From: Coniferiporia sulphurascens
Taxonomy: Eukaryota; Basidiomycota; Agaricomycetes; Hymenochaetales; Hymenochaetaceae
Length of the DNA stretch: 64,000 nt
Direction of reading: 5' to 3'
NCBI GenBank assembly: GCA_002794785.1
Contig: NBBA01000008.1
Span: forward strand, 1,054,001-1,118,000
Position 1 is the first letter of the stretch; every line of letters starts with the position of its first letter. The translations under genes and the position numbers were made by a program. This document shows positions 14,654 to 44,236 of this stretch, piece after piece. The notes under the pieces were generated by a model that saw only the letters and a list, made by a program, of their open reading frames with translations, had not been told where the DNA came from and did not search any database.

Positions 14654-17512
14654 AGTCATAGACAGCGGCTGCCCACCTCTCTTTCCCCGCCTTCCCCCTC
14701 CTTCCCTCTTCCTTTTTTTGATCTTGTTCGCTGGCACGAGGAGCTGACTCACGGGCGGGGAAACACGTATTCTACACGACTTCCCCCCAGTGACTGACTA
14801 ATTGGTCGCGGCTTCTAAAAGTAGTTTGGGCTGGCGCGGCCCTACTTAGAATGTAATTCGGATGTATGGATTGTATAGTGTGTGGATAGTATGCACTTGT
14901 GGAAATGGAAACCAACGTTCGATCCTTGACTTGCTTGCTCTGGAGTCTGGACCCCCTGCGCAGTGCGATTGACGCGTTATACGGCTTGAAGCTGACGAAT
15001 TCAACTTTGGACGTTCCTAATGGAAGCAAAGGTACAGGCGCTTTTACGACCGCAATCCAACTTTCAAGTGACCTTGGAGGCTGGAGCTATGCAACCGAAG
15101 TGCGAACTTGTGCGGCGACACAGCGGTCACACCGTCGTCTATTTATTACTTAAGTTCGAGGTACAAGCAGAAAGCGATAAACGACGCCGGCAGATGCCAG
15201 TGCCGATTTCGGTTTAACATTCCAGGCCACCCGTCAGCGGCGGGTGGCCGATATGCGCCCCTTCTATACACCACGTCTGCGTCCCCGCCAAATAAGCAGG
15301 CAATTATCTGCAAACTGAAGCATCCTATTATTGGACGCGCTTCGCCCCCGCCCACGCAGCCGCAGAACGCAGGACGCATGCAATTGTCAGTGGCCTTCGC
15401 GCGGCCGTCGTCCGCAAAACAAACCACCAAACTTAATACACCTCACCCGCACCCCAATTCGACCTTGGCGCCCCCCTTATTGGTGCCCCGACCCCAGAAG
15501 GGATGGGATCCGGGATCCTATGAGTCTCCCTGCATGCACGGCCGCACGCAGCGCGCTGTGCAGAGAGAAACCAGAATTGACTGGGCTTCATCATATCGTA
15601 CCACTTTTCGCTATGATAACGCAACTGGCCGCTAGTGATTGTGGTCATCATTGGTTGGCCCGCCGCCGTCGCAGCCCCCGTAATGGTCGCCGGCGCGTGT
15701 GCGGTTCGTCCATGGCCTGCGCGGCTCGGAGTCTGAGCTCTCACTACTTGGGATTTAGAATAGGGGTACGGTCGGTGCGCACGCCTCTAGATACAGTAAG
15801 TGCTAACGTCAATATTCCGTAGTCTCCGCAGATGCGTTGGCCGGACTCAGTACAGTATTCTGTGCAAGTCGTGTTCTCCCCTGTTCAGTTCGATAACGCG
15901 CCCACATTACTTATGTAAGCAAGACTACCATCGGTCCGAACGACGTCACGCCGACAGTTTTGCCTCTGCACTTGCGAGATCACGAATAGAAGTCCGTGTC
16001 TCCGCCGCAGTTCGATTTGGCTTTTCGACAACGGCATCGTAGATATCAACATATCGTAATCATAAAGTGAGTTCGATGCGGAGCGCGCCACATTTGTTGG
16101 GCTTGATCTCCGCTCTACTATATTTCCAGGAACCCCGATCGATTCCCAACCCCTCCGTTTCCTCCGGCTCGTAATCCCAAATCTTGGAACTTTCGGCTTT
16201 ATCGTCCGTCGTTGTCGCCCTCCGAGGACTCAAGTCGCCGCGAACGCGCGCCTAGCGTGTTGTTTGTAATATTTAGGGGCAATGACTAGCTAATGGCGTT
16301 GGCTAGAGACAAGGGCGCCTCTGCATTGCGCAGGAGCGCCGACACAAAAATAGCCAACTTGGTAATGTGTGGCGATGGCGATGGGCACCGGCTGTGCCAA
16401 GCCTCCGCAATCGGTCCGAAGCAACGGGCACCGCTGGCAAGTGCGTGCGTGCGTGCATGCAATGCACACGTTCGAGTTCATGAAAAAAAAACGTGCGTGC
16501 ATGCGTACGTCACCGCCGACGCTAGCTTTTCTTTTTCCGTCCTGGTGCGGCCAGCGTGGGTATCCTACCGCCCATGCAGCGTGTTCCATTTAATAAATGT
16601 TCCAAGTCAACGAGATTAACGCAGAATACGCTCCCGTCGGAGAGAAGTACTGGCAAGACAAGCAACTTGAACCAAGCAAGCACGAGGGCTGACAGTCTCC
16701 GGTGCGCACATAGTGACCGGAGCACATTGAAGAAACTTTCTCGTAATCATTGAACTCCGAGGTCGAGCAAGGAGATGCGACCCGTACATTCTTATACATC
16801 CATCCATTCTGCGATTCTCGCCACTTGAATACCCTGGGCCACGTTTCGCGACTACCCTAGACGCTTCCTTTTACGAACCTGAAGCAGCGCTCAGCCGGTC
16901 GACCAGTACACCCGCTTCCAACATTTTACACATGGCAGATTTATACAGACTTCTGTCTATACTATCAGAACACAAAAAACGTCCCTGCGTCCGCCGCACA
17001 GTGCCAGCGAATCACGATTGTGTTTCCTTCCCAAGGGAAGGAGGATACACCGACGTGTGTCCACCATCCCCTCTTTCGTCTTCAGGATCTACGACAAAAG
17101 AGTAAAGCAACGGAAGCAGAAGCAGAAGCAGACCGTCATAAGTAGTACGGCAGGTCGCAGAATACGTCCGGAGTTCTGAAAAAAAAAAAGCCGGACGCGG
17201 TACTACGTATATGCTTGGTTCTTGATCTTCACGCCCGGCCACCCTTGAGCTTCCTCGCAAATCCGAGTTAGGGGATGACATACACACACGCTCCGAGCAC
17301 CCGGGGGAAAAACGCGAGGAACGTCCTTCGGAGGCAATCCTAAAAGACTTATCAGTGTTTGAGCAGCCACTTACGAGATTGCCGTATGTATGTGCGTGGT
17401 CAATCAAAGTTGGTATCAACTTTGGGAAAATCCACGGACCCTTGAGTCCGATATCGCAGGGCCGTAGGGCCTCCGGACTTTCCAAACGCAAATCGGGAAT
17501 CAGGAATCGGGT

Positions 17513-18652
17513 AGACCATATAGGTCGATGGCAATCAATCTTCCCCCTCGGGCTCGGCGAGAGATCAGGCGTCACTCACAATCTGGGGTTCTGGGCTCGC
17601 TGTATCGCGATTTGCCGCGCCCCGGCCTTGTTCCTTAACGACGTGTACGTGCTATGTGCGAGGAGGTTGTTGGGTCGGTGCCTGGGTTGGGAGCTTTTTT
17701 TTCTACTTGCGATTGAGAAGACGTGCGGGGTGCCCCGACGTTCGTGAGGCGAAACTGGTATTAACGAAGATAACGGGAAAATGTGCACTTGTTTGAGAGG
17801 ACGAACGGTTCTTTTGGACACTAAGCAAGCATCTGGGCTGGTAGCTGATGGTGTTGATGACAAGACTTGGCAGCGTTATTAAAAAAGGTCGTCTGATATC
17901 AAGTCTTGCTCGTGGTATGACTGAGTCGATGGATTCGGTTTACTTTGCGATCAGCGCCTTTCGCAAATTGCACGCCTGCGCTGTGCAAAAAATATCGGTC
18001 AGTCGGTTAGTACGCGTATACCTGACACTAACACTAACACCTACTATATTATCAGAATATAAGAATATAAAAACTGCTCGTACACAGAGAATACTGTACA
18101 GGTGATGGCAGTGAATAAGGGAATGCTACACCACCATGTACCTATTTCCCGTTCTCCTTTTCACCGAGGTCTTAAGCCATACGGTAGGTACCAAACTGAT
18201 AAATTGGTAACCTAGAAAGAGGAGCGCGAGCGGTAAATCGCGGACAGGGAAGACCACGCGTTTATCCTATCTGTGCAGGTATCGCACCTACCGTTCCGTT
18301 CTTGAATTTCCTTTCGCAATCGTCAGGTTTCACTTGCGAACTTCGTCTTCGGTGTACTAGTATTTCTGGCAGCGTCTAATACCGTACTCACGAAAGCGCA
18401 GCAGGCTAATCCCGATGATTACTACAGTTTTGGGAACGCTCGCTGTATCAATCGCAGAACTCGAGATACCCGGATTTTCCCAGGACAAATAGAGATAAGG
18501 CGTCAGTAACCAGTATAGGTAGCTATAGGCCGTATTCCAGGTCATCGGTCTTTCCCGGGCTCGGGGAGAGATTGGCGTGGCTCTAGGCTTTAGGTCTCTC
18601 GCGAGTTGCCGCGCATTTGCTTCTTCTCGATATGTGCTATGTGCCGTACGGA
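17513..18652. repeat. Two diverged similar blocks, direct orientation
   Basis: The blocks at about 17513-17660 and 18533-18652 share the order GGGCTCGG-GAGAGAT-GGCGT, then GCGA(T/G)TTGCCGCGC, then GTGCTATGTGC, with insertions between. On the minus strand both can encode a peptide containing AHSTY followed by an Arg/Pro-rich stretch. They look like decayed copies of one repeat or pseudogene about 1 kb apart. Aligned by eye only. Confidence 0.35.
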
Positions 18653-19308
18653 GTCCGGGCTGAGGTCCTGAGGAGGGGATTAATATTGTGTAAGTTGTGG
18701 TTGGACTCGTGAATACCGTTTCTGTCCTGGATTCTAGGCTGTCCCTGCGGTAGTCATGATACGACTCATTACTGGAACTCCGTGTCCCTGCATCGTACAC
18801 TGCCCGCAGTCCAGCTGGTACGGCCTACAACAGGCTCCTCATCGATAAAAGACAACCCCTACTAGTACAGCGTGCCGTGGAGTGCACAGACGGGCCCGAT
18901 TTTTTTCTTTCTCCCTATCCCGTCGGATCTGGCTCAATTATACTATCGATTAGTCCAACTCAGGCTCCTGTGCCGCTGTGCGCCTGTGCTGCCGAGACGC
19001 TGTCCATGCGGTTAATAGCCCAACCAGGGCCTCAGGGCTCGTAACAGAAAAGGCTCGCACGAGCCGATGATTCACACTCCGGAGCTCATGTGTACTGTAA
19101 GTCGGATCGGACGAGTACAGCCGTGTTAATTTTACGAGTTTGATTTTATTCTTTTCTATCCTCCTTGTGAATCTGTTTGGGGGGTTGACTGCGACTACAA
19201 ACAATAAATACCAAAAGTCGCAAGTCAACAACCCCCCCCTTCCCTACATAAATATATAGTACATACATTTCATCCGTCCAATAAATAGATGATACAGACA
19301 GCAAGTTT

Positions 19309-19400
19309 GGAAAGCAATGGGAAAGCAGTAGGAAAGCAACGGGAAAGCGATAGGAGAGCAGCAGGAAAGCAATGGGAAAGCGATAGGAAGGCGATGGAAA
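19309..19400. repeat. 11-bp minisatellite, about 8 units
   Basis: Eight tandem units with consensus GGAAAGCRRYR, head to tail from 19309 to about 19396, e.g. GGAAAGCAATG then GGAAAGCAGTA then GGAAAGCAACG. The minus-strand reading frame through it simply spells the repeat. Confidence 0.85.
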
Positions 19401-19927
19401 ACTAGGGAGTGTGTGAGGCGACCAGGACGGCGCAGAGAAAACAAGAGCGACGGATAAATAAAGAGAGTGACGAGCGGCGCCTCTGAAGAGGTCTTGTTGC
19501 GCGCATAGATAGAAGCTTGGCTGCCCCTCGCTTTACAGATGAGAGCGGGGAGGCGCCGACAAACGGGATAAGTGAGGGATAAACGAGATAACACTTGGAA
19601 GAGAACGGTGTCGCTGGCCGGTGGATTTGGTTTAGGTTTGAGGGGGGAGGGTGTGAGGTGGTGGTACAGCGAGCTGCACGCGCGAATGTTAGAGAATTCC
19701 CGGAAGGCGGGAGTAGGCGGTGAGTTACTCACCAATATTTAGTGAGAACGCCGAAGTGAAATAGACATGCAAGGAGAGACCGGTGATTTGATGATGTGGG
19801 TGATATGTGCAGACTGCGATGTCATCAACGAGTCAGACGAGCTAGAGAAAAAACAGCGTAAGGGGAATGAATGGAGACGTACTGAGGTTTGTTCAAGCGC
19901 AGACGTCCGCGCTTCGGGAGCACGCCA

Positions 19928-20104
19928 TCAGGCTATAACGCACAAGTTCATGATGGTCGCGCCCAAAGAGTCGTCCCTCCCCGCGTCGGCAAGCGAGAGC
20001 ATCTCGCACGTTGTGAGCGGTGCAGAGACAGGACCGAAGGTAGGGGCGGGGGCGAGGGAGTCGTCGGTCATGAACCCAGCAGACATCTCGGAGAAGCTGT
20101 CCAT
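19928..20104 (-). CDS. Putative mating pheromone precursor (CaaX lipopeptide)
   Basis: A 58-residue minus-strand reading frame. It starts MDSF, the usual N-terminus of Agaricomycete pheromone precursors, and ends CVIA directly before the stop (TGC GTT ATA GCC TGA). CVIA is a farnesylation CaaX box common in mushroom pheromones. Known family members (Pfam Pheromone, PF08015) are 45-75 residues, are cut at a charged pair about 10-14 residues before the Cys, then farnesylated, AAX-trimmed and carboxymethylated, and act on Ste3-type receptors. Here the candidate cut lies near AGRDDSLGATIMNLC, around Gly-Arg-Asp. The propeptide is acidic and rich in Ser, Ala and Pro, with no signal peptide, as expected. 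No Ste3 receptor is visible in the window. An alternative, a GT donor inside the TTGTGC codons giving an 89-residue spliced product without a CaaX end, looks less likely. The surrounding DNA is otherwise gene-poor. Confidence 0.62.
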   Translation of the reverse strand: MDSFSEMSAGFMTDDSLAPAPTFGPVSAPLTTCEMLSLADAGRDDSLGATIMNLCVIA

Positions 20105-21865
20105 GGCGGTGCGAGAGATGCTAGAACGCGAGTGAGTGCTTGGGGTTGAGTTGCGCGGGGGGATGGTGTGTAAGAGTTGAGCGGGGGTTGCGGGTTAATG
20201 CAGTAGCGCGGCTACAGCAAGTGAGGGGGATGAGGGCGAGCAGAAGTGTGAGTGAGAGTGAGTATATGCAGCGGGTGTCCTTAGTTCTTGAAAAAAAAAA
20301 CAGGGAAAAAAGGCCTGTATTTATGCAACCAGATAATTCGGAGCCGCATATTGCCCATGTGATACCTATCAACCAGATTCCATTTTCTTGTCTCCCACGA
20401 CCTGCGCAAGAAAAAGAAAAACAGAAGATAAAAGACGTTAAAAAAGGGTTAGTTAGCAACCCCCGAAATGCAGACCTACCCGAGCCTCGAGGTGGCTTGT
20501 ATTTTGGGTCGGAGGTTGCCATTTACAGACGGCAACTAGTTCGAATCGCAATTACTGACCTGAGAGGGTTGAAAAAAAAAATTGTGGGTCCGTTCTCCGA
20601 ACGGTCGGCCCCTTCCGCGATCTGTTCCGTGTTCGCACCGATATCCAAAGCAGGATGCGTCGGCCGGACTGCTTGGGTTGAGATAAGGGACATGCCAGGG
20701 CTAGGTGGGGAAGTGGAGTATGGAGCTGGGATATGGAACTGGGATATGGTATCAGGGCGTGGCATTCGCGCAGAATGTGGCTTCAATTCCAAAGTCCCAA
20801 GAAAACAAACTTTGGACTCAGGGGTGTCGAGGAGATTATGGAGAGCACCGCAACGACGGTCTTGCGCCGGTAAGGCTCTACGTGTCGACGCGTACAGCGA
20901 TGCCAAGGCGTTAGACGAGCGCCATGCTTGCCGCCTCATGGGTCAACCGTGGGAGCAGGCCTGTGTGCAATACGAGGACAGTCGGCCGATTCGGATGCAG
21001 GCGCTGAAGCTTCGATTTTAGGGTAAACATAGCAAGCGTAGGGCGTTTTTTCCGATGAGGACCATCCCTCGACGACGGTGACTCGTTTGCTAAAGGTGCC
21101 GCCGAGCCTAGCACCATCTTGAATCTGTAGGTTCGTCGACGCCCCACGATAGACGCAGACGTGGTCGCAGCTGGGCATCTGAAGGTGCTCATATTTATCA
21201 GAAACGGGTAGTGGCATGTCCCTAGTGCACAAAAAGGGGCTGACAGACTATCCGCACGCAACCCCGGGCCACAGAGAAATGTAACCACAGGCCAAAGCAC
21301 ACTGTTCGCTTTGAGCCCCGGACATTGAGTCCGGGTGGTTGTGCCTAAACGATGGGGGGACATTCTGCCAGTAGACATAGCCCAGGGCGCATCTGATAGA
21401 CCATGCGCCTACAAACTGATATTCTGTCGGAACCTTCGGCACAGCAGGTGAGTTAGGAGGCATTGTACTTTGCTTCAAATCATCAAGACCCTGCCAGGAG
21501 ACGTCGGCATCGTCGGGCCACATACTATACCCGGCCACATTAAGTCTGGCCAGCATGACTACCGGAAATTTTAATCCTGAAGGAATGTCCTAGCACTTGA
21601 TGTTCTGATGAGTAGGTTCACCTAAGAAAGTCGCACAGGAATAGGTGTACATAGTTTTGTTAGAGTTTGAATGTACAAAAGACTGTGTAGAGGTCCGCAC
21701 AATAGCAAATATACAGGTGGCCTCCGTTTACTTCAAGGTATACAACAAGCAAGCTGGGATAAACTTAACTTAGAAAATAAAACAACCACGGATATGACGA
21801 AATTACATTGAGACAAACTTCTTCTGAGGAACGCCTGCTCCCGATTGACACAAACAGGATTTATA
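20105..21865. other. Gene-poor region beside pheromone-like gene
   Basis: No gene is supported. The longest frame (plus strand, 20140-21021, 293 codons) has no recognisable domain and crosses poly-A runs. A minus-strand frame (21248-21556) has a fairly protein-like composition but no start context, splice partner or motif. The minus-strand sequence ATAT near 20262-20266 could serve as a weak TATA-like signal for the pheromone-like gene. Confidence 0.5.
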
Positions 21866-23337
21866 TCAACCACCCGCCTTTCCGAGAAGAGCGTAGCCGC
21901 TTCCTTGAGGTCCGTAATGCTGAAATGGAGACGCAAAAGTCTCGTCAGTTAGGGACTCGCAGTTTCAAACTTAAAAACAGACTATTGTGGCTAACACGTA
22001 CCTTACTATAGCAGCTTCGACACACAATCTTATCACCCTTCTCCGTAAGACGGCTAGAGTCCAACGCAGTGTTGCAATCTGTGCAGCGAAGACATGGCTT
22101 ATGAAAAGTGCGTCCATTTGCTTTAACCTGTTCCGCGAAATACACGGGCTTTGTGCAGCGCGCACATAGTGGCGTACCCGTTCCCGGCATCGCCCGACTG
22201 GCCCATGGGCTTGAACCAGCCGCCTTTGGACTTCCGAGAAGCGCGGCACCATAGCGCGTGCCCGCTGCTGTATGGCGCTCCGGTGAGCTCTGAGGCGACG
22301 CGGGTGCTCCTGCTGGCAAGGATGGCGTCGCTGAACGGGGCACAGAGGTCGACTGGCCATTAAATTGCGTTGGTGCACGCGCGTTCGGAGTGATCGGGCC
22401 GTAGCCACGTCCGCTGAGAGCCGATGTTAAGGGTATGGTACGTGGTATTCCAGGTGTGCTGCGCCCCACTCTATGCTCTTCGACGTCACGCTTGCCCTCA
22501 CGACCACTTTCACTTCCACTCTGGCCATTATCCCCCAGTTCATCACGTAAAGGACTTGCGGATCTGTCGCTTGCAGACGCGACCGAACCCCCGGAGGACT
22601 TTGAGCCCTGTTTGAACCCTTCCGTTCTCTTCGCAAATGCCTAAGGGATCATAATTAACACAAGACCAACCTGCCCTCTACGCAATAACTCACGTTTACT
22701 TGGAAGTGAGGCGACCCAACCCGATCCGGCTGCCCTCGCTTTGCGCGCTCAAACCTTCCTTCCACCTCTTTCTCTTCCTGGGTTGGTGACATGCTCCTGT
22801 ACGACTTCGCCGGTGAGCCGGTATATGTAGGCCTGATGGGTGATGAAGACAATGGTATAGGAATATCATCGCGGTGGGGAAGGTTAGCCTGTCGGAGATC
22901 GCGGGGACCGAAGTTCTTGTTGTAACATTGTTTGCTGTGTACGCGTTAGATAACTTCTACAATGCTCGAGTTAACGCCTTTTCACAGCGTACCAGTAGGG
23001 CTCCTTGTCATGCTCCATTAAAGATAGCGAATCTAAGCGTTTGCCACATGTTGTACATGCCAGACAAGGCTGCGGCAAGTTCGATCAATAAACATGGCCC
23101 ACAAAGGGTTAAACGCAATTACCTTGTGGTAAAGCTTGAGGTAATAGCATGGGGGATGAGCTCATTCTGAGAATAAGAAATGTAATATGTACATACATTC
23201 CTTCCAGGGCCCATAATCTAAACAAATTCGAAAAACACATCCCCTTTGAGAGGCAGAGAAATTTATCTCACCTGTTCAGCAGCGTACACTGCTGTCTCGC
23301 ATCGGGGACATATCGGTATACCTCCGTATGGGTGCAT
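21866..23337 (-). CDS. Two-LIM-domain protein
   Basis: LIM domains are paired zinc fingers used for protein-protein contact, often at actin or in signalling and nuclear complexes. Seven exons on the minus strand: 23272-23337, 23197-23217, 23123-23134, 22993-23069, 22700-22934, 22002-22640, 21866-21919; 367 residues. LIM1 (residues 10-62) has Cys10, 13, His32, Cys35, 38, 41, 59 and 62: CPRC, then YHKPCLACTTC, then YCKQCYNKNFGPRDLRQANL. LIM2 (about 296-347) has CARC, FHKPCLRCTDC and VCRSC. Between them lies about 225 residues of Ser/Pro-rich linker. The protein ends YGPQGSGYALLGKAGG, a tail typical of fungal CRP-like LIM proteins. Exons 2 and 3 are 21 and 12 nt and encode IMGPGRN and LYHK inside LIM1; all four introns before exon 5 are 53-62 nt. 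The start is the Met nine residues before the first zinc ligand. Confidence 0.93.
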
Positions 23338-25826: not shown

Positions 25827-28049
25827 ATGGGCCTGAGTGGTACCGTGCTCTTGAATACCGCCATTCTAACAGTCTCTCGGTGAGCCGGACTTTGCCACAA
25901 CCATTATGGGGGTTAAGCGGCCATTTCTATTTCTAGAGGAGCATTACTTTACGCTTGCCAGAAATACTTGCTGCGTTCAGTTTACCATGACCTGCAGACC
26001 ATTACTGCATCTGCAGGGGTGTTATCGGCATCCAGCCGGGACCACTTAGACATTGACACCGACGTTGAGTTGGAGTCCCTCCCTAGACCCAACACAGCGA
26101 GGGACGGCCCTTTACTCTCGCAAAACGCTGGTCCACAATCAACATCGAACCACCTTAAGATCTCCCAACTATGCTTTTCCTTGTGTTTTTCCGAGAGCTG
26201 TACGCTTTTCCTACTTTTCATGTGCCAGGAACTCTCTATCCTGGATTCTGAGTGAGACTTAAAGCAACCATGGTATCCGAAATTTATAATGAAGAATTGT
26301 TTCAGGAGCTTAATAGTGAATTGGAAGATATCGCTGTTCTTGTTATTGGCGCAAATACTCTTAGTTATCCCGTTACTACAAAATTTCCTTCTGACCTACC
26401 AGTCTCCTCTAGGTATGTCCGTGTGACCCTCATTGAGCCCTTCTTGCTGCTTGAACCAACTTCAAGGGAGAGTTTCCCGCAGTCGATCCGTACCGACACG
26501 CGTCCTAATGGCATTAATACCATACTCGCTGTATATCTTTGCACTTTCTCTGATCCCGCTACCGGAAGGTCTCTCGTCAACGACTATACTTTCCGTAGCG
26601 CTTTCGCGTCTCGTAGTCCTCGGCACGTTCATCATGGGTTCACTTTCTGGTCTTGGGGCAGCACGAAACTCTTGGAACTACATTCCATCCTTGTCTAGAG
26701 GGCAACGGTTCGTTGTTCATTATATGCCGACATGTTAGTACAGGAAATTGATTTCTAGACAGTCGAATACCCTCCGAGCAAGAGTTGTATGCGGCGAAGG
26801 AGGCACTTGTACGTATAAGAAATGATATTCAAGTGCGCCAGAAAGAGGAGCAAAGGTTGCAGGAAACGAAGGTAGCGATGGAAGCTTGATAACTCTGGCT
26901 TGAAATTTTAACCAGGATACCCTTCTGCGCAGTCGACCGACACGTCATCGTGGATGTCAAGAGTAGCGTCAAGTCTCTCTGGAAACTCGGGTGCGCTTGC
27001 TATTTTATCTATTGTCTGCACTCAGATCCGGCACTCACCTAGAATTTCATCCACGAACCTTGCAGAGCTTACTTCCGTCCAACGGGAGATCACCGGACTA
27101 TTAGCTCTGGAATATCAGATGGACAGGAACCTGGAAAGCATGAAGAATTTGCACATCAGCTCACAATATAACCGAACTCTGCAAGGAAGGATTTTACAGT
27201 TTGCAGGTCGCCTATTCGCGCTTTATTGCGTGTTCAGAACGCTCAGCGTAAATTTTCTATTCTTGCACTATTACTTCGATCTGATATATAGATGTTTAGT
27301 CCATACTGAGTGTAGCAGCACCCTTCCGTTCAAAAAATATCGCAGAAGGCGATGCATCAACCTCATATCCAGACATCATCGCGCACTTCCTGACATATTT
27401 ATTCTCTTTGTTGCCATTCATCCATCTTAGCCAGGATACTATATCAGCCATCTCTAGACAAGTCGGGCTTGTCCTTGTCGGGATCATTATCCTAAGCACC
27501 GTGCGATTCGTTCTTAAGGCCGTATCCAGAGTATGTAGAACTAGTCTCAGCTCGGTTGCAGCTACAGCTGACCTGCCTCGCTATTATAGCTACTGAAGAT
27601 TACCAGCCAGAACCTGGGCGCCTCACTGCTGCTGCTTATCCTAGCACAGCTCATGGTCAGCACGTCACTCTATATAATTGACAAAATCGGCAATGACCCA
27701 CATTCATTTTTCGTGTTTTAATTAGGGAACATATCTCATTTCGACGCTTGTTCAACTTCGTACGGCTTTTCCTCCTGCCACGACCTCGCCAGACTCGGGA
27801 TCTGCGCCGGCCAACGTTCTGTCTACTTTGCCTGCGTACGAGGTGTTTGGTGCTGCCTTTGATTATTCGTACTTGCTACTCGCATTCGCAACGGGCGTAT
27901 ACTTGTGGATGGATGAACGTATAAATGGCGGTGGTTCAATGATTGGTGAGTGCAAAATACGCCGTATTCTTTGGAACGAATCTAATCCAACATACAACAT
28001 AACACATACTTGGAAGATGACAACTAGCCAAGTTTACCCAGAACTATAA
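25827..28049 (+). CDS. Golgi pH regulator / GTG-type channel (GPHR)
   Basis: Multi-pass protein of the GPHR/GTG family, an anion channel of the Golgi that keeps its lumen acidic; plant relatives were described as abscisic-acid-binding GTG proteins. Exons: 25827-25879, 25937-26251, 26306-26412, 26467-26707, 26763-26871, 26933-27247, 27300-27530, 27590-27655, 27726-27945 and 28042-28049; about 554 residues. Retaining the last intron (96 nt, in frame) would give 586 with the same stop. Family landmarks in order: hydrophobic N-terminus with CQKYLLRSVYHDLQ; FSLCFSESCTLFLLFMCQ; VNWKISLFLLLAQILL; LSRLVVLGTFIMGSLSGLGA, matching the LSG-FGA motif; a charged helix SEQELYAAKEALVRIRNDIQ; the GRILQFAGRLFALYCVFRTL motif; and C-terminal helices ending AQLMGTYLISTLVQLRTAFP and VYLWMDERING. 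Its stop lies 43 bp from the stop of the convergent GH78-like gene. Confidence 0.92.
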
Positions 28050-37061: not shown

Positions 37062-39721
37062 ATGTCCGACCCGACCAGCTTCGTCCCTCCCATAGGGGAG
37101 CCGACGACGGCCGTCAACCTCGAAGATGCGTCGGCAGCGAACTTGTCGTTTGCGCAGCAGGCTACCCGGACCGTGCACGAGACCGAGGTGCGTACTTTAC
37201 ATGGCTTCCTGGCCCCAGTTTCAAATTCAACTCATATCCCCCCCCCTACTTCTGTAGATGAACATATTCATCGCCGCACAGCGAGGCGAGGTCGATGTCA
37301 TCAAATCGCTCATCGAGTCTGGGAAGGCACACGCGACGGACAGAGACGAGCAGAATATCACTCCACTCCACTGGGCCGCAATTAATGCGCAGGTCCCAGC
37401 CTGCCGGTATCTGCTCGAGCAAGGCGCGGAAGTCGACGCGCTCGGTGGCGACCTAGTGGCGACGCCTATGCAGTGGGCAGCCCGGAACGGGTACCTCTAC
37501 GTCATACAACTACTCATCGCGCACAACGCCGACCCGACGATTTCCGACGCGCAGGGCTACAACACGCTTCATCTCGTGACGCACTCGTCGTCGGTTATGC
37601 CCCTGCTGTACCTGCTCCACCAACCGATCAGCGTCGACTCGCGCGACGCGCAGGGCCACACTTCGTTGATGTGGGCAGCGTACCAGGGGGACGCGCTCTC
37701 CGTCGACCTCCTGCTGAAGCACGGCGCCGACCCGAATACGCGGGACGAGTCTGAGCTTACACCTCTGCACTGGGCTGTCGTGAAAGGGAACAGGAATTGC
37801 ATTCGCAAGCTCGTTGAGAAGGGAGCGGACCTTACCGCCAAGAACCGGGAGGGAAAGACGCCGAGAGATATGGCTGCTGAGTTGAAGAGCCTTGGCGCAT
37901 GGAAACGGGCATTAGAGGAAGGAGGTATGCTGGAGGACGGAGCACAGAAGCAAAAACCTTTGAGTGAAGTAAGCTGTGGCCATATTTATCAAGGCTTGAC
38001 CTTACTGACCCCTTGCAGCGTAACACGAAACTAGCCATTTTCCTCATGCCAACTTTCTTCTTCTATCTCATGTTCACGACGCTTAAAATTATGCCCTGGT
38101 ATACCGGAATATTGCTCGCCATGGCAGAATTCTTCGCGATGCACCACGTGCGTAGACCTATGTTTTCATAGAATGTGCTTCTTTATTTGTTACTGACCGA
38201 GAAGTTCATAGATCGTGACACGTGTTCTTCTGAATACCTCAAGTTATACTGATAGCGTAATACAAAGTCCGTATTATGCCGGAATTATCTCAGGCAGTAT
38301 GGTGTGGGTTGCGTACTGTTGGGTAACGCGTTTGCTGTATCGTAAGGATATGTTCGTTTGAACCTTCGAGCGCATTCCGTTAACATATAACGCAGAGCCC
38401 CAGCACCATCCGTTCATTCACCTGGCCTTTGCCCTGGCATACGGATTATGCGCGTATAACTTTGTGCGCTCTATCACTCTCGATGCAGGGACGTGTCCAA
38501 AACCTGCGAACGAAGGAGAGCTAAGGGCTGTAAGGAGCCTTCTTGTGTGCCGGGAAGATATAAATTAACACCTTTATTTTACCAGATTGTCGAGGACCTT
38601 GCGTCGGAAGGCCGATTAAATGGACAGACGTTCTGCATACAGTGCATGGTATGACAATCCACATATTTGCACTCCTTCTCAAGCGGCTCATGATGTGCAT
38701 CAAAGGCACGAAAACCCCTCCGCTCAAAACACTGCCGTGTATGCGACAGATGTGTGGCTCGTCACGACCAGTAAGCCTTGCCTTCTCACCTTCCGCTGAG
38801 TTTCTTCTCATTCTACTTTTAGCCATTGTCCATGGGTATGGAACTGTGGTGGGTGCCTTTTCCGCCTTGCTTCATTTTATAGCTGACACCTTTTAGTTGG
38901 AGTAAACAACCATCGCCAGTTCATCTTGTTCGTGACTACGCTTGTCATTGGAATAATTATGTTCGACTATCTTGCTTATGCTTGTAATGTTGCCTCTTTA
39001 TGCTTATCTATGTTCTATGCCCTCATTCGTCTCGTCAGATTTCTCGACTATCAACGCTCTGTCAGAACCCTCGTCGTCATGTCTGCTCCCCGACGAGCTT
39101 TGTGCTATTACTGCTTACGACCCTTTCCTCTTTGCCGTGGCCTGCTGGTCAACCCTCCAGCTCCTCTGGACGACTGTACTCCTTACCGGACAACTGTACC
39201 AAATCACGCGTCAAATGACAACCTTCGAGGTCTCGAACCTCGGGCGGTACGGTTTCATGGGCGGGCGCGGTGGCAGTAGCCTCGCCTCGCAAATGGGGCA
39301 CCGCCACCAGCACGCGCCACTCGGCGGGGGCGGCGCGGGGGGCGACGAAGTGCAGCCGCACAAGCACCAACACGTGGGATGCGGAGGGATGCTGATGCAG
39401 TTGACAGGGTTCGACGCGTTCACGAAGGGCCGTGCTGCGGACGGGCTGGCACGCGCAGGGAAGGCGGCGAACCCGTTCGACGCGGGCATCGTAGGGAATT
39501 GCACGGACTTCTGGACGACGGGGCGCGAGCTCGGCGTCGAGTATGCGCGGCTGTACGATATACCGCTCGAGGGCTTCCGCGAGGCGAAGCGCCGTCGCGA
39601 GAAGGACGAGGAGGAGGACGGCGCTCACGGGACGCGTAAGGCTCGTGGCCAATTCATGGGCTTCAGCCTCGGCATCGGGCGCGGATCGCGTACGGGCTAC
39701 GAGCCCGTGAGCCAGGTATAG
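37062..39721 (+). CDS. AKR1: Palmitoyltransferase AKR1 (ankyrin-DHHC)
   Basis: Integral Golgi/endosome enzyme that transfers palmitate to cysteines of cytosolic proteins; in yeast Akr1 acts on casein kinases and restrains the pheromone pathway. Ten exons: 37062-37187, 37258-37968, 38019-38147, 38212-38341, 38396-38529, 38586-38648, 38706-38770, 38823-38848, 38897-38983, 39039-39721; 717 residues. About six ankyrin repeats span residues 43-260 (NITPLHWAAINAQVPACRYL, ELTPLHWAVVKGNRNCIRKL). Transmembrane helices begin near 283. The Cys-rich catalytic domain has FCIQCMARKPLRSKHC, then [20 protein letters not shown]; the DHHC tetrad is residues 452-455, with the nucleophile Cys455. Two more helices and a Gly/His-rich cytosolic tail follow. 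Exon 8, holding HHCPW, is only 26 nt, and the catalytic domain is spread over four exons. The first exon is a 42-residue acidic leader. Confidence 0.96.
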
Positions 39722-40944
39722 CCTGAGGCTACCGAGTGTCGTTTGCCTGTTGCCGTGTTGCCGTCGATGTTGTTAGTTGATTTGGGTAATGTAATGCCAG
39801 CGTACGCCTTTTATTTTTCGCAGACATGCAGGACATATTTCAGATTGTTCATCTTCGCTACCACTACTTCCACTACTTCTACTACATACCTCGGTTTTCT
39901 TTTTTCTCTCTTTGCACGTTTTCGACTAATGATCCCGTATAGTTTACGAAAATGCGACGGTTGCCTCTTGACCGAATGTAAATGTTGTACTTGATGGAAC
40001 TTGCAAGTGTGGCGATGAACTGCGATGGGGGCTGATAATTATTCGGGGCCTCGAGCCTCGAGGACATCACGCAGTCGTTAAGCACGTGTTTTGAGCCGGA
40101 AATCCCGGCTGAACCTTAGTCGAGCCTCAAGACGGTGGAAACTCTATTGCAAACATAGGAAAATTGTGGCCCATACAATCTAAATATCTCCTCCCCGTTT
40201 TCTCTTGACCTCACCTTGGCGAAGCGAAACGAAACGATATGGAGGGAAATATTGAAAATACCGAGAAGTTGACGCACTTTTTCCACACAGTTACTTTTTG
40301 TTTTATTTTACAACACAGAAAGCGAGGATAAGAAGGAACAAGAAATAAGAATAAGTAAGTTGATATGATAAAAAACAGATTACACTCTCGGCTCGTGTTC
40401 GTGCCGAATATGCAAAACAAAACACAACATCTAGAAGTTACAGTCCTGAGTGACTTTTCAGTCCAAAACGTTGGTCGCAAAGTGCACGAACAGTTGAAAA
40501 TTGATTCCAATAAAAGAGTGTGTGTATGCACAAAAAGGTGTTGCGGATGGGCTGTGGTTGTGGTCGTGGTTACGATTGTGGTCGAAGTTGAAGATGAGAA
40601 TTCACGAGTCGACTTTGAACAACGTGAACGTGAACGTTGAAGTGTGTAGCTGTGGCTGTGGCTCGGGCTAATGCCAGGGAAGAAGACAAAGGGTATCATG
40701 ACGCGGTCGGGGTATTGTCAGGTTCAAAGTAAAGAAGGGTAGGATATGCGGTATGCGCTGCGCTGCGGCCTACGTATGCCTGGAGGAGACGGCGAACTGA
40801 AGGTATTTTTACGTGAGTCTGGTTTTCGCTATGGTATACATGATATGATCCGTTCAGTGCGAAAACGGAGACTTACGAAATGAATGGGACGGCACGTTCG
40901 ATGTGGGTGTGGCGAAAGGAGTGTGTTACGGTATTCCGTACTCT

Positions 40945-41010
40945 GCGGTTGCAGTTGCAATTGCGGTCGTGGTTGTGGTTGCGGCTGTGATTGTGGCTGC
41001 GGCCGCGGCC
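40945..41010. repeat. Degenerate hexanucleotide tract, 11 units
   Basis: Eleven successive hexamers of the form G(C/T)(G/A)(G/A)(T/C)(T/C): GCGGTT, GCAGTT, GCAATT, GCGGTC, GTGGTT twice, GCGGCT, GTGATT, GTGGCT, GCGGCC twice. The phase is perfect although most units differ. Confidence 0.85.
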
Positions 41011-42842
41011 GCCTGTGCCATGCTCACCGCTCCGAGCCGTGCATCACGAGATCACACAGTAAGAAGAGAAAACGGAACCGCTGTCGTTCCTTCCTGCATC
41101 GACAAAAACGGGGAGCAGTACTGGTGATGGTGGTGAGCCTGAGGACAGTTCCGGGACTCCCGGGGATAAGGAGCTCGGCTGCCAGCCTGAGTGCCTGGGC
41201 GGCGAAGGCGAAGGCGAGGGGAGTACTAGTGTAAGGAATTCGTCCATTGATGGGGCGAAGCTCTAAATGGGCGAACACCGAACGTGGAGTCGAAGTCGAA
41301 GCTGTCGAGGTATGAAATCGAAGGGACTCAAAGACGTTCAGCGACGAAAATCAATAAGCGCGAGTCGGGTTGTTGCGAAGAACAAGCTTAAACTGCGCAG
41401 AGGGGGTTCGAGTCGAAGGAGCAGGTAGAGTTGAGAGTTGTTGGGACGGAAGAGCGAGACGAAAGCCTAGGAACTCGAGGGGCAGTTTTATACTCCCAGC
41501 CAAGCCATGAACCACAGTACAACCACAGTAGTGCACAGTGCACATATGTACTGTCAAAGCGCACCATATCCATAACCCGCCACACCGCAAAAAAGGAAAA
41601 GTCAAAGCGGTAGTAGTGGCTGGCGGTGGAGCACTGGTCTGAGGTGTTCGAGTCTTCCCATTGGTCCGAGCTGCAGTGCACAGCAGCATGCATACCACGT
41701 TCCAAAAAGCGTCGAACGCTTTATCCTGGCCGATGGCGGTGGATCCAAGTCGGCGCCAGCCTGAGTACTAGTGGCAGCCCGAGGCCAGTCAGCAGCTACA
41801 GCTGTAGGACTCCGAGTCGGGGGTACTGTAAGGGCACAGAATCCAAGTCCCAGTTCATATTAGCAAGGCCCAAGATTCCAAGCAAGCAGCGGGCCATTGT
41901 AGTTGTAGTTACAACTGGTGCTCGCGACTCGGTGACCGCCAAAACGGTCGCCAGTACGGGAGAACCCGGGCCGGGGCGAAAAGAGTTGAATATTGAATAT
42001 GGCAGTACTCCAGTGACTCGGACTAGAACTCGGTGTGTGGTGACCGCCTCTGATCATAAGTATCATGGCACTATCTCTTTTTCCGGAAGACGGGGGTGAA
42101 GGCGATGGCGGAAGGCCGTCGCATACCAGTGCACAACTCGGACCTCGGACCTCGCCAGCTGCCAGTTATTCGGCGCAGTCGCATATAAGTGCATACCATC
42201 GTTTGACTCGAACATCCGTACATGCGATTATAGATGTCCTCCGGAAAACTAGTCATGCGTCGGAGTGGGTGTTCAGATGCGGAAGGAAAGAAAGAAGGAA
42301 CGGAGGGAAGTTCGATTTGGTCTTGAAATGAAATATTCCGTATTCAGCTCAGCCTCAGGCCTCGGCCGTATACCTTTTCAAGGCTTCTGACTTCTGCGAC
42401 TGTGCGCCAAGTCCACTGCGGACTCGGAACCAGGGACTAAATAAATACTCACACCACGATACGTAGCAGCCCGAGTTGGATATACCGCCCTTTGCCTCGG
42501 ACCGACTATTAAATTTCAAATTCGTACGCGATGAGTTACTGCGCACATGAACGGAAGTCTATGGCATTACAAACTCCCAATCTAGGTCCGGGTCTTCCCA
42601 CGACACGAGTGGAGTTGCACGCCCCGCGCAGACAAGCTCAAAGGGGAAGGAAAACCGGAAACAGAAACAGAAGGCAAAGAAGGAGGACGAAAGAAGGACT
42701 TGGGACGTTCGAGTCCGAGTCACTGGCGGCGGCAGGCTTACTGGAAGAAGAGAAAGGGATCGCAGACCTCGGAAGACTCAGAGGAGAACCCCACTGGCAG
42801 TCGAGAGCGGTCTGGGAAGTGCAGCGGATGGATGGATGGAAT

Positions 42843-42860
42843 CGGACTCGGACTCGGACT
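42843..42860. repeat. CGGACT hexanucleotide, 3 units
   Basis: Three perfect CGGACT units directly after a GATG tetranucleotide run; the same hexamer recurs at 46984 and 59659. Confidence 0.8.
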
Positions 42861-43946
42861 TCTGTGAATGCACGCACACGCACGCTGGATCGAATCACGA
42901 CGGTCCGTCCGGATTCTGGAACTCAATACGTTGGCGCAGAAAAACAGTACAAATCGAATGCCTTCCAATTGGCCGATCCGAGTCCGTGTCTGACTCTCAA
43001 GTCTCAAATCCCGAGTCTGATGACAAAAGAGAAAAGGCGGGGAGGTTGAAAGGCAATGCATATGCTACTGAGCAGAAGGAAGGAACAGATCCATCTAGAA
43101 GAAACCAGAAGAATACCGCACTGTGCTGTTGCTGTTGCCGCGATGTCACTGGCAGCTTCGACGTCAACCGACTGCTCATTTGTCCGATTGTCCGGTTTTT
43201 CCGATTTGGGCATTAATTTACTGTAAATTTGGGGAGAAAACCTGGAGACTCGGAAATCAGAAATCAGAAACGGAATCGGCGGAAGAAGACGAAGACAAAG
43301 ACAAAGACGAAGAGCGCCTACATGGGGGCGCGGGGAACTCCAATTGAGCAAAGAGCCGGGGAAGAACATCAGTTTTAATCTTAGTGTTGATATTGATATT
43401 GATATTAATAGCGAACAAAGACAAAGGAGAAGCGCGCTCAATTTGATACTTGATTCTTCTTCGATGATATTAGTGTTTGCCTCGAGTACGTGTACGCAGT
43501 ACGTACGGTACAGCTTTCTGGTGGCAACGCGGCGGCGTAGGCATAGCGTCCTAAATACGATCATGCAGTGATAGCGGTTCAGCCTCAGGCTTAACTCGAA
43601 CGGTTCTTGTGTTCCCGGGGCCCTGCCGGTATTTTCTTCATCTGGGATTCTAATATTGATTGTATTGGTTTATAGAAGTGTGTAGTGCGTAGTACTGTAC
43701 GTGCGTGCGTGCGTGCACAGCCGTTAATACTGGCACGAGGAGGGGACTCCGAGTCGGAACCCCGAAATCCCAAATCACCACGAGTCGGCGTAGTCGACCA
43801 ATTCTACCAGTACTAATACCACTAGTAGCCTGAGTACTTCGACTACTACGCCGCTGCCACGGTCACGGTGCGAAGTACTTTAAGTTTACTGCGCCCAGGC
43901 TCCGAGTCGTGCTACGGTAATACATATACTCAAGGGGTGCTCTCGT

Positions 43947-43964
43947 TCAGGCTCAGGCTCAGGC
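43947..43964. repeat. TCAGGC hexanucleotide, 3 units
   Basis: Three perfect TCAGGC units. The complement appears as GAGCCT units near 56.6 kb. Confidence 0.8.
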
Positions 43965-44236
43965 TGCGGGGTGGGGCTGTACATTGTACGTTATGATCAT
44001 AATATCATGCATGTGGCCCAGGGTGCATGGGTGCGCGTGTACCAGGGTTCGTATTAATATTCCGGGATATGGATACTAGGTTTAGATCTGCGCTCGCGAG
44101 TCGCGAGTCGTGAGTCGCGACACAAGCCACTGGCGGGACTCAGGACTCCGGACTTAGGAATCAGAAGCCCAGGAGCCCAGGAGCCCAGCTGGCTGGCGCA
44201 TAGTTACGATGCACCAAGGACTGCGCCGCTGCACCA

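Follow-up and report, generated by a model that had tools for sequence, protein, structure and literature searches.

The locus considered here raises the question of whether a short frame in Coniferiporia sulphurascens is a gene for a lipopeptide pheromone precursor and, if so, whether that precursor serves mating type. The frame, P0001, occupies positions 19928..20104 on the minus strand of the window, the whole stretch of 64,000 nucleotides analyzed, which corresponds to C8:1054001-1118000 in a genome of 39.35 Mb and 31 contigs. A preliminary description had proposed it as a mating-pheromone-like gene. As judged from its sequence and that of a second frame, P0002, P0001 is likely to be a genuine gene, paired with P0002, whose product is the precursor of a CaaX lipopeptide pheromone; this reading spans both mating and non-mating functions.

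P0001 itself was found exactly as it had been described. Its 58 codons and stop translate as MDSFSEMSAGFMTDDSLAPAPTFGPVSAPLTTCEMLSLADAGRDDSLGATIMNLCVIA then stop, beginning with MDSF (20093..20104; start context ACCGCCATGG) and closing with the CaaX box CVIA (19931..19942), a predicted farnesylation signal. Between these ends lies DAGRDDS (19967..19987), a putative N-terminal processing region with 11 residues from its Arg to the CaaX Cys. A putative TATA-like element, the weak ATAAATA (20318..20324, minus), stands 220 bases upstream of the ATG. The frame has a single match in the genome and is acidic, as proposed, with a net charge of -7. The most hydrophobic 10 residues of its N-terminus average only 0.85 on the Kyte-Doolittle scale, and by this measure, used in place of a dedicated predictor, there is no sign of the signal peptide that had been said to be lacking. 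The surrounding 7 kb had been called gene-poor, which is roughly right: the nearest Pfam-matching ORFs are at 10.4-11.2 kb (PIH1 domain) and 21.9-22.5 kb (LIM domain), and Pfam returned no family for three longer ORFs overlapping or adjoining P0001 (19767-20135 plus, 20121-20522 minus and 20140-21021 plus). In a codon score trained on ten long ORFs from the window, P0001 ranks first among the window's 322 ATG frames of 45-90 codons; a plus-strand frame within the P0001 interval is also raised (0.131 vs 0.243 for P0001). A PDB sequence search with P0001 and an Rfam search of the window returned zero matches.

A frame of similar build lies on the same strand at 41044..41247. P0002 has 67 codons and a stop, reads MDEFLTLV...VDAGRNDSGSVFSSYCVIS, carries a net charge of -3 and contains DAGRNDS (41080..41100), 10 residues from R to the Cys of its CaaX box CVIS (41047..41058). 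It has one full match in the genome, a second match on contig 7 being at chance level (E 5.3). A putative TATA box (TATAAA, 41487..41492, minus) lies 245 bases upstream of its ATG, and its codon score is unremarkable (rank 58 of the 322 window frames). The Ustilago-type pheromone response box is ACAAAGGG; its one occurrence within 1.5 kb of the P0001 and P0002 starts, at 40686, is uninformative because it is positioned downstream of P0002. Segmental duplication was considered as the source of the pair and set aside, as blastn of positions 17001-23000 against 38501-44000 gave zero matches. Two ORFs elsewhere in the window have below-cut-off family matches: one at 38972-39721 (plus), approximately 1.3 kb from P0002, weakly resembles a DHHC palmitoyltransferase (E 0.0098), and one at 26954-27430 (plus) matches the ABA_GPCR family (E 0.0013).

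Both frames have the outline of published precursors, which are 40-100 residues long with an MD[SA]F-like N-terminus (PMC5100862, PMC8305134; these and the other papers cited are represented here by excerpts). P0001 has 58 residues and starts with MDSF, P0002 has 67 and starts with MDEF, and in each the CaaX box immediately precedes the stop. The putative processing site is less conventional. The dipeptides described for such precursors are ER, DR, EH, NH, EE and DE, about 10-15 residues before the C-terminus (PMC8305134, excerpt); P0001 and P0002 have none of these and present DAGR followed by DD or ND, near the expected distance. Their predicted mature ends, ...DDSLGATIMNLC for P0001 and ...NDSGSVFSSYC for P0002, are not G-rich. 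P0001 has MNL ahead of its CaaX box, without the Y/F present there in P0002 and in five other precursor-like frames of the genome.

These five frames came from a census confined to CV[VI][AS]-type ends. The pattern CV[VI][AS] followed by TRR occurs at 94 places in the genome vs 67 for the backwards control, and 58 of the 94 carry a true stop: the two window frames, C8:703545 (in a stretch already scanned) and 55 others, of which 46 were read. Five of the 46 have an M[DE]xF start and were judged precursor-like, the other 41 being without such a start. Three of the five are G-rich (C1:3977438, 40 aa; C5:1780129, 38 aa; C8:288095-288319, minus, 74 aa) and two are not (C11:745664, 44 aa; C22:235955, 39 aa). 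Among the C1, C5, C11 and C22 frames, two have nearly the same tail (DTGSGGSSTYCVIA and DTGSGGSTTYCVVA). In tail comparisons P0001 and P0002 score 32 with each other and neither exceeds 22 against the five, so the window frames form a group apart. The frame at C8:288095-288319 is a single reading frame of 74 codons in which two pheromone-like units, NDRPGGGSGTTYCVVA and SEERGGDGQTYCVIA, follow each other, with no stop closing the first. This frame may encode a precursor of two peptides or have arisen as a stop-loss fusion; red yeasts are known to have multi-copy lipopeptide precursors.

The Pfam pheromone family PF08015, put forward earlier as a check on P0001, did not recognize it: at an E limit of 10 neither P0001 nor P0002 was listed, nor was either assigned to any other Pfam family, although HMMER filters discard most matches above E ~0.1 despite that limit. 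The same profile listed 6/6 published Rhizopogon precursors, two of them over the curated cut-off (six of the eleven in the excerpted part of Table 4 of PMC5473757), as well as all three frames tried from the same genome (C1, C5 and C11; 17.6-20.1 bits, none over the cut-off). A genome-wide search gave zero places at E 0.001 and four at E 10 (C8:288 kb, C1:3977 kb, C10 and C19), none of them in the window and only C8:288 kb over the cut-off. Since it listed just two of the five other precursor-like frames, the genome-wide search is a weak test by itself. The below-cut-off matches on C10 and C19 lie at C10:1409627-1409749 (17.7 bits, with an internal stop) and C19:61799-61924 (14.1 bits).

Could two short frames with a coincidental heptapeptide account for these observations? 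Such an origin would be in keeping with the negative PF08015 result for both frames, the neutral codon usage of P0002 and the weak similarity of the two bodies, which, taken without MDxF and CaaX box, is matched by 593 of 20,000 shuffles. Against it stands the rarity of the outline. The window contains seven ATG frames of 25-110 codons that close with a loosely defined CaaX; two of these, P0001 and P0002, combine an M[DE]xF start with a strict CaaX box (C[VTI][VIL][ASMVG]; the motif classes were set after P0001 was seen). Comparable frames are absent from 22 further 10-kb pieces of contig 8 (220 kb in all) and from 6.4 Mb of simulated sequence, made up of 100 first-order Markov copies of the window; in the simulated sequence the loose CaaX definition gave one. 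The frames also share DAGR[DN]DS. The back-translated pattern DAGR[DN]D[S] matches the genome (39.3 Mb) twice, once in P0001 and once in P0002, with no third match. Its backwards control matches three times, so two matches are no excess; it is the in-phase placement of the motif at nearly equal offsets in both frames that carries evidence. The tetrapeptide DAGR is not rare, being found also in an unrelated CV[VI][AS] frame (L055) and in a frame of the receptor region. BLASTP aligns P0001 and P0002 with 10/18 identities across DAGR...CVI, and only 5 of 20,000 shuffles align as well as or better than the 18-residue tails without the CaaX box, a segment chosen post hoc with the motif already seen. 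Together with the first-ranked codon score of P0001, these results make the coincidence of two chance frames improbable, and the P0001 frame is unlikely to be due to chance. A CaaX box alone is not pheromone-specific, and with no profile match P0001 might also be viewed as a CaaX-ended small protein unrelated to pheromones, such as a prenylated membrane peptide. This is very improbable in view of the MDxF start, length, acidity and like-built partner, which together form the outline of a pheromone precursor (PMC5473757, PMC8305134, excerpts).

The location of the pair relative to pheromone receptors bears on its function. All STE3 matches in the genome (E up to 0.001) fall at C8:772-781 kb (772143-781387), in three gene-like groups within approximately 9 kb; two groups are clearly related (42-68% identity by exon), while the third is weaker (50% over 36 and 30% over 121 residues). 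The preliminary description had suggested a search for STE3-type receptor genes within about 50 kb of the window, and no STE3 match lies there. The closest lies on the same contig some 293 kb from P0001, the distance from P0002 to the cluster being about 314 kb, so neither frame has an STE3 match within the tens of kb expected in a B (P/R) locus. The earlier pheromone-gene reading thus stands in part: start motif, CaaX box, acidity, coding-like codon usage and a partner with a common processing-site region make P0001 precursor-like, but it draws no support from PF08015 or from the 50 kb around the window, where STE3 matches are absent. A relic receptor near the pair was sought by tblastn with five receptor exon frames against the window and 10 kb on each side, with zero matches.

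The neighborhood of the receptors was read in turn. None of 21 ATG CaaX frames at 690-890 kb, nor of seven CaaX frames with or without ATG at 770-790 kb, was judged a precursor, so that 82 kb to the left and 109 kb to the right of the cluster hold no recognized precursor-like frame; a spliced precursor could escape such a reading. The closest outline, a 39-codon frame at 751518-751637 with an MSDV start and a CVIY end, was set aside by judgement. Between 890 and 1044 kb, reading covered 345 bases. Among the 150 integrase (rve) matches listed for the genome (150 of 248 candidates were scored), ten lie on contig 8, none of them in 233-1,315 kb, so nothing here points to a large transposon island separating the receptors from the precursors. 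Elsewhere, three Homeobox_KN matches at C1:3743-3748 kb adjoin a peptidase M3 (MIP-type) match at C1:3750-3752 kb, with another homeodomain match on C12; homeodomain genes adjoining MIP are the arrangement reported in Agaricomycetes (PMC8686365, PMC6207663, excerpts), and with the STE3 cluster they place the genome among the basidiomycetes, probably the Agaricomycetes. Linkage of the pair to this locus was discarded, as the locus is on C1 and the pair on C8. Since receptor matches are absent from the vicinity of the pair, and the surroundings of the receptors yielded no recognized precursor, the ligand genes have probably been uncoupled from the receptor genes, a layout reported in Agaricus bisporus.

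What such uncoupled precursors would do can be read in two ways. That the pair encodes non-mating lipopeptide precursors is a serious possibility, if short of probable. It accords with the distance to the receptors, with the dispersal of the five other precursor-like frames over C1, C5, C8, C11 and C22, and with the scattered precursors of A. bisporus, judged in the excerpted account to be without mating-type function (PMC8305134). The non-mating peptides in that account are, however, G-rich (consensus GGGSGNGAYC), as are three of the five other frames, whereas P0001 and P0002 lack this composition and form their own group. Because the C11 and C22 frames also lack it, G-richness is no sharp test.

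Alternatively, P0001 and P0002 may be genuine B mating-type pheromones belonging to a P/R region that has been extended, for instance through an inversion, to approximately 300 kb on contig 8 and is still inherited as one block; this reading is possible but doubtful. The pair shares its contig with the sole STE3 matches, the 82 kb to the left and 109 kb to the right of these receptors are devoid of recognized precursors, and the two frames differ from the G-rich non-mating peptides. The sequences of mating-type precursors are reported to be very distinct (PMC4101180, excerpt), and in Flammulina, PR subloci separated by 177-181 kb were inherited together in the crosses reported in the excerpted part of PMC5100862. 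The separation of some 293 kb nevertheless exceeds the published distances compared, all taken from excerpts, and the B locus of Grifola spans only 47.8 kb (PMC10607315). In addition, each Flammulina sublocus retains its own receptor, and the sublocus combinations differ between strains, which shows that the subloci can recombine (PMC5100862, excerpt). A more specific proposal, which we rate as rather unlikely, is that P0001 and P0002 represent a divergent subgroup, marked by DAGR[DN]D and invisible to PF08015, that still specifies mating type, the P/R locus having been split into ligand and receptor blocks 0.3 Mb apart.

Under the preferred reading of P0001 and P0002 as lipopeptide pheromone precursors, whether for mating or not, their maturation would be expected to follow that of the family (PMC8305134, PMC5100862, excerpts). 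Both would be translated as short precursors and farnesylated at the CaaX Cys, after which the last three residues would be trimmed and the Cys carboxymethylated. A protease would cut at or near DAGR(D/N)D, and the product would be exported as a lipopeptide of roughly 10-13 residues ending in ...MNLC or ...SSYC. The target of this lipopeptide would be an STE3 receptor, possibly from the C8:772-781 kb cluster.

Several known systems resemble the pair in part. The phb genes of Rhizopogon are likewise short MDxF frames with an acidic spacer and a site approximately 10-15 residues before a CVIS/CIIA-type CaaX box, one example in Table 4 being an MDAF frame ending LLVDADAKWNYGGYCVIS, and they are often missed by gene finders (PMC5473757, excerpt). 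Unlike P0001 and P0002, they lie close to STE3, and all six tested match PF08015. In A. bisporus, precursor genes are similarly unlinked to the mating-type-orthologous receptor, but they yield G-rich mature peptides, and three out of four are located next to a centromere (PMC8305134, excerpt). With its scattered precursors and receptors, judged to have lost their role in mating type, this species is the nearest precedent for the layout among the sources excerpted. In Flammulina velutipes, P/R genes are spread along one chromosome as PR-a and PR-b, which recalls contig 8, but each sublocus contains both receptor and precursor (PMC5100862, excerpt), whereas here the two lie apart. P0001 and P0002 combine a divergent processing region with an unusual genomic location.

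Pheromone precursor genes are readily overlooked when genomes are annotated. In the excerpted account of Rhizopogon, about half of the precursor genes were found only by a CaaX script (PMC5473757), and in the excerpted accounts of Sparassis (~20 kb; PMC6207663) and Hypsizygus (5 kb; PMC8686365) precursors were sought only around receptors. P0001 and P0002 would escape a PF08015 search and a receptor-neighborhood search alike. Should they prove to be mating-type genes, a ligand can be encoded far from its receptor; otherwise they are candidates for mating-independent lipopeptide signaling. On either reading, they offer two defined predicted peptides and a small set of receptors against which to test them.
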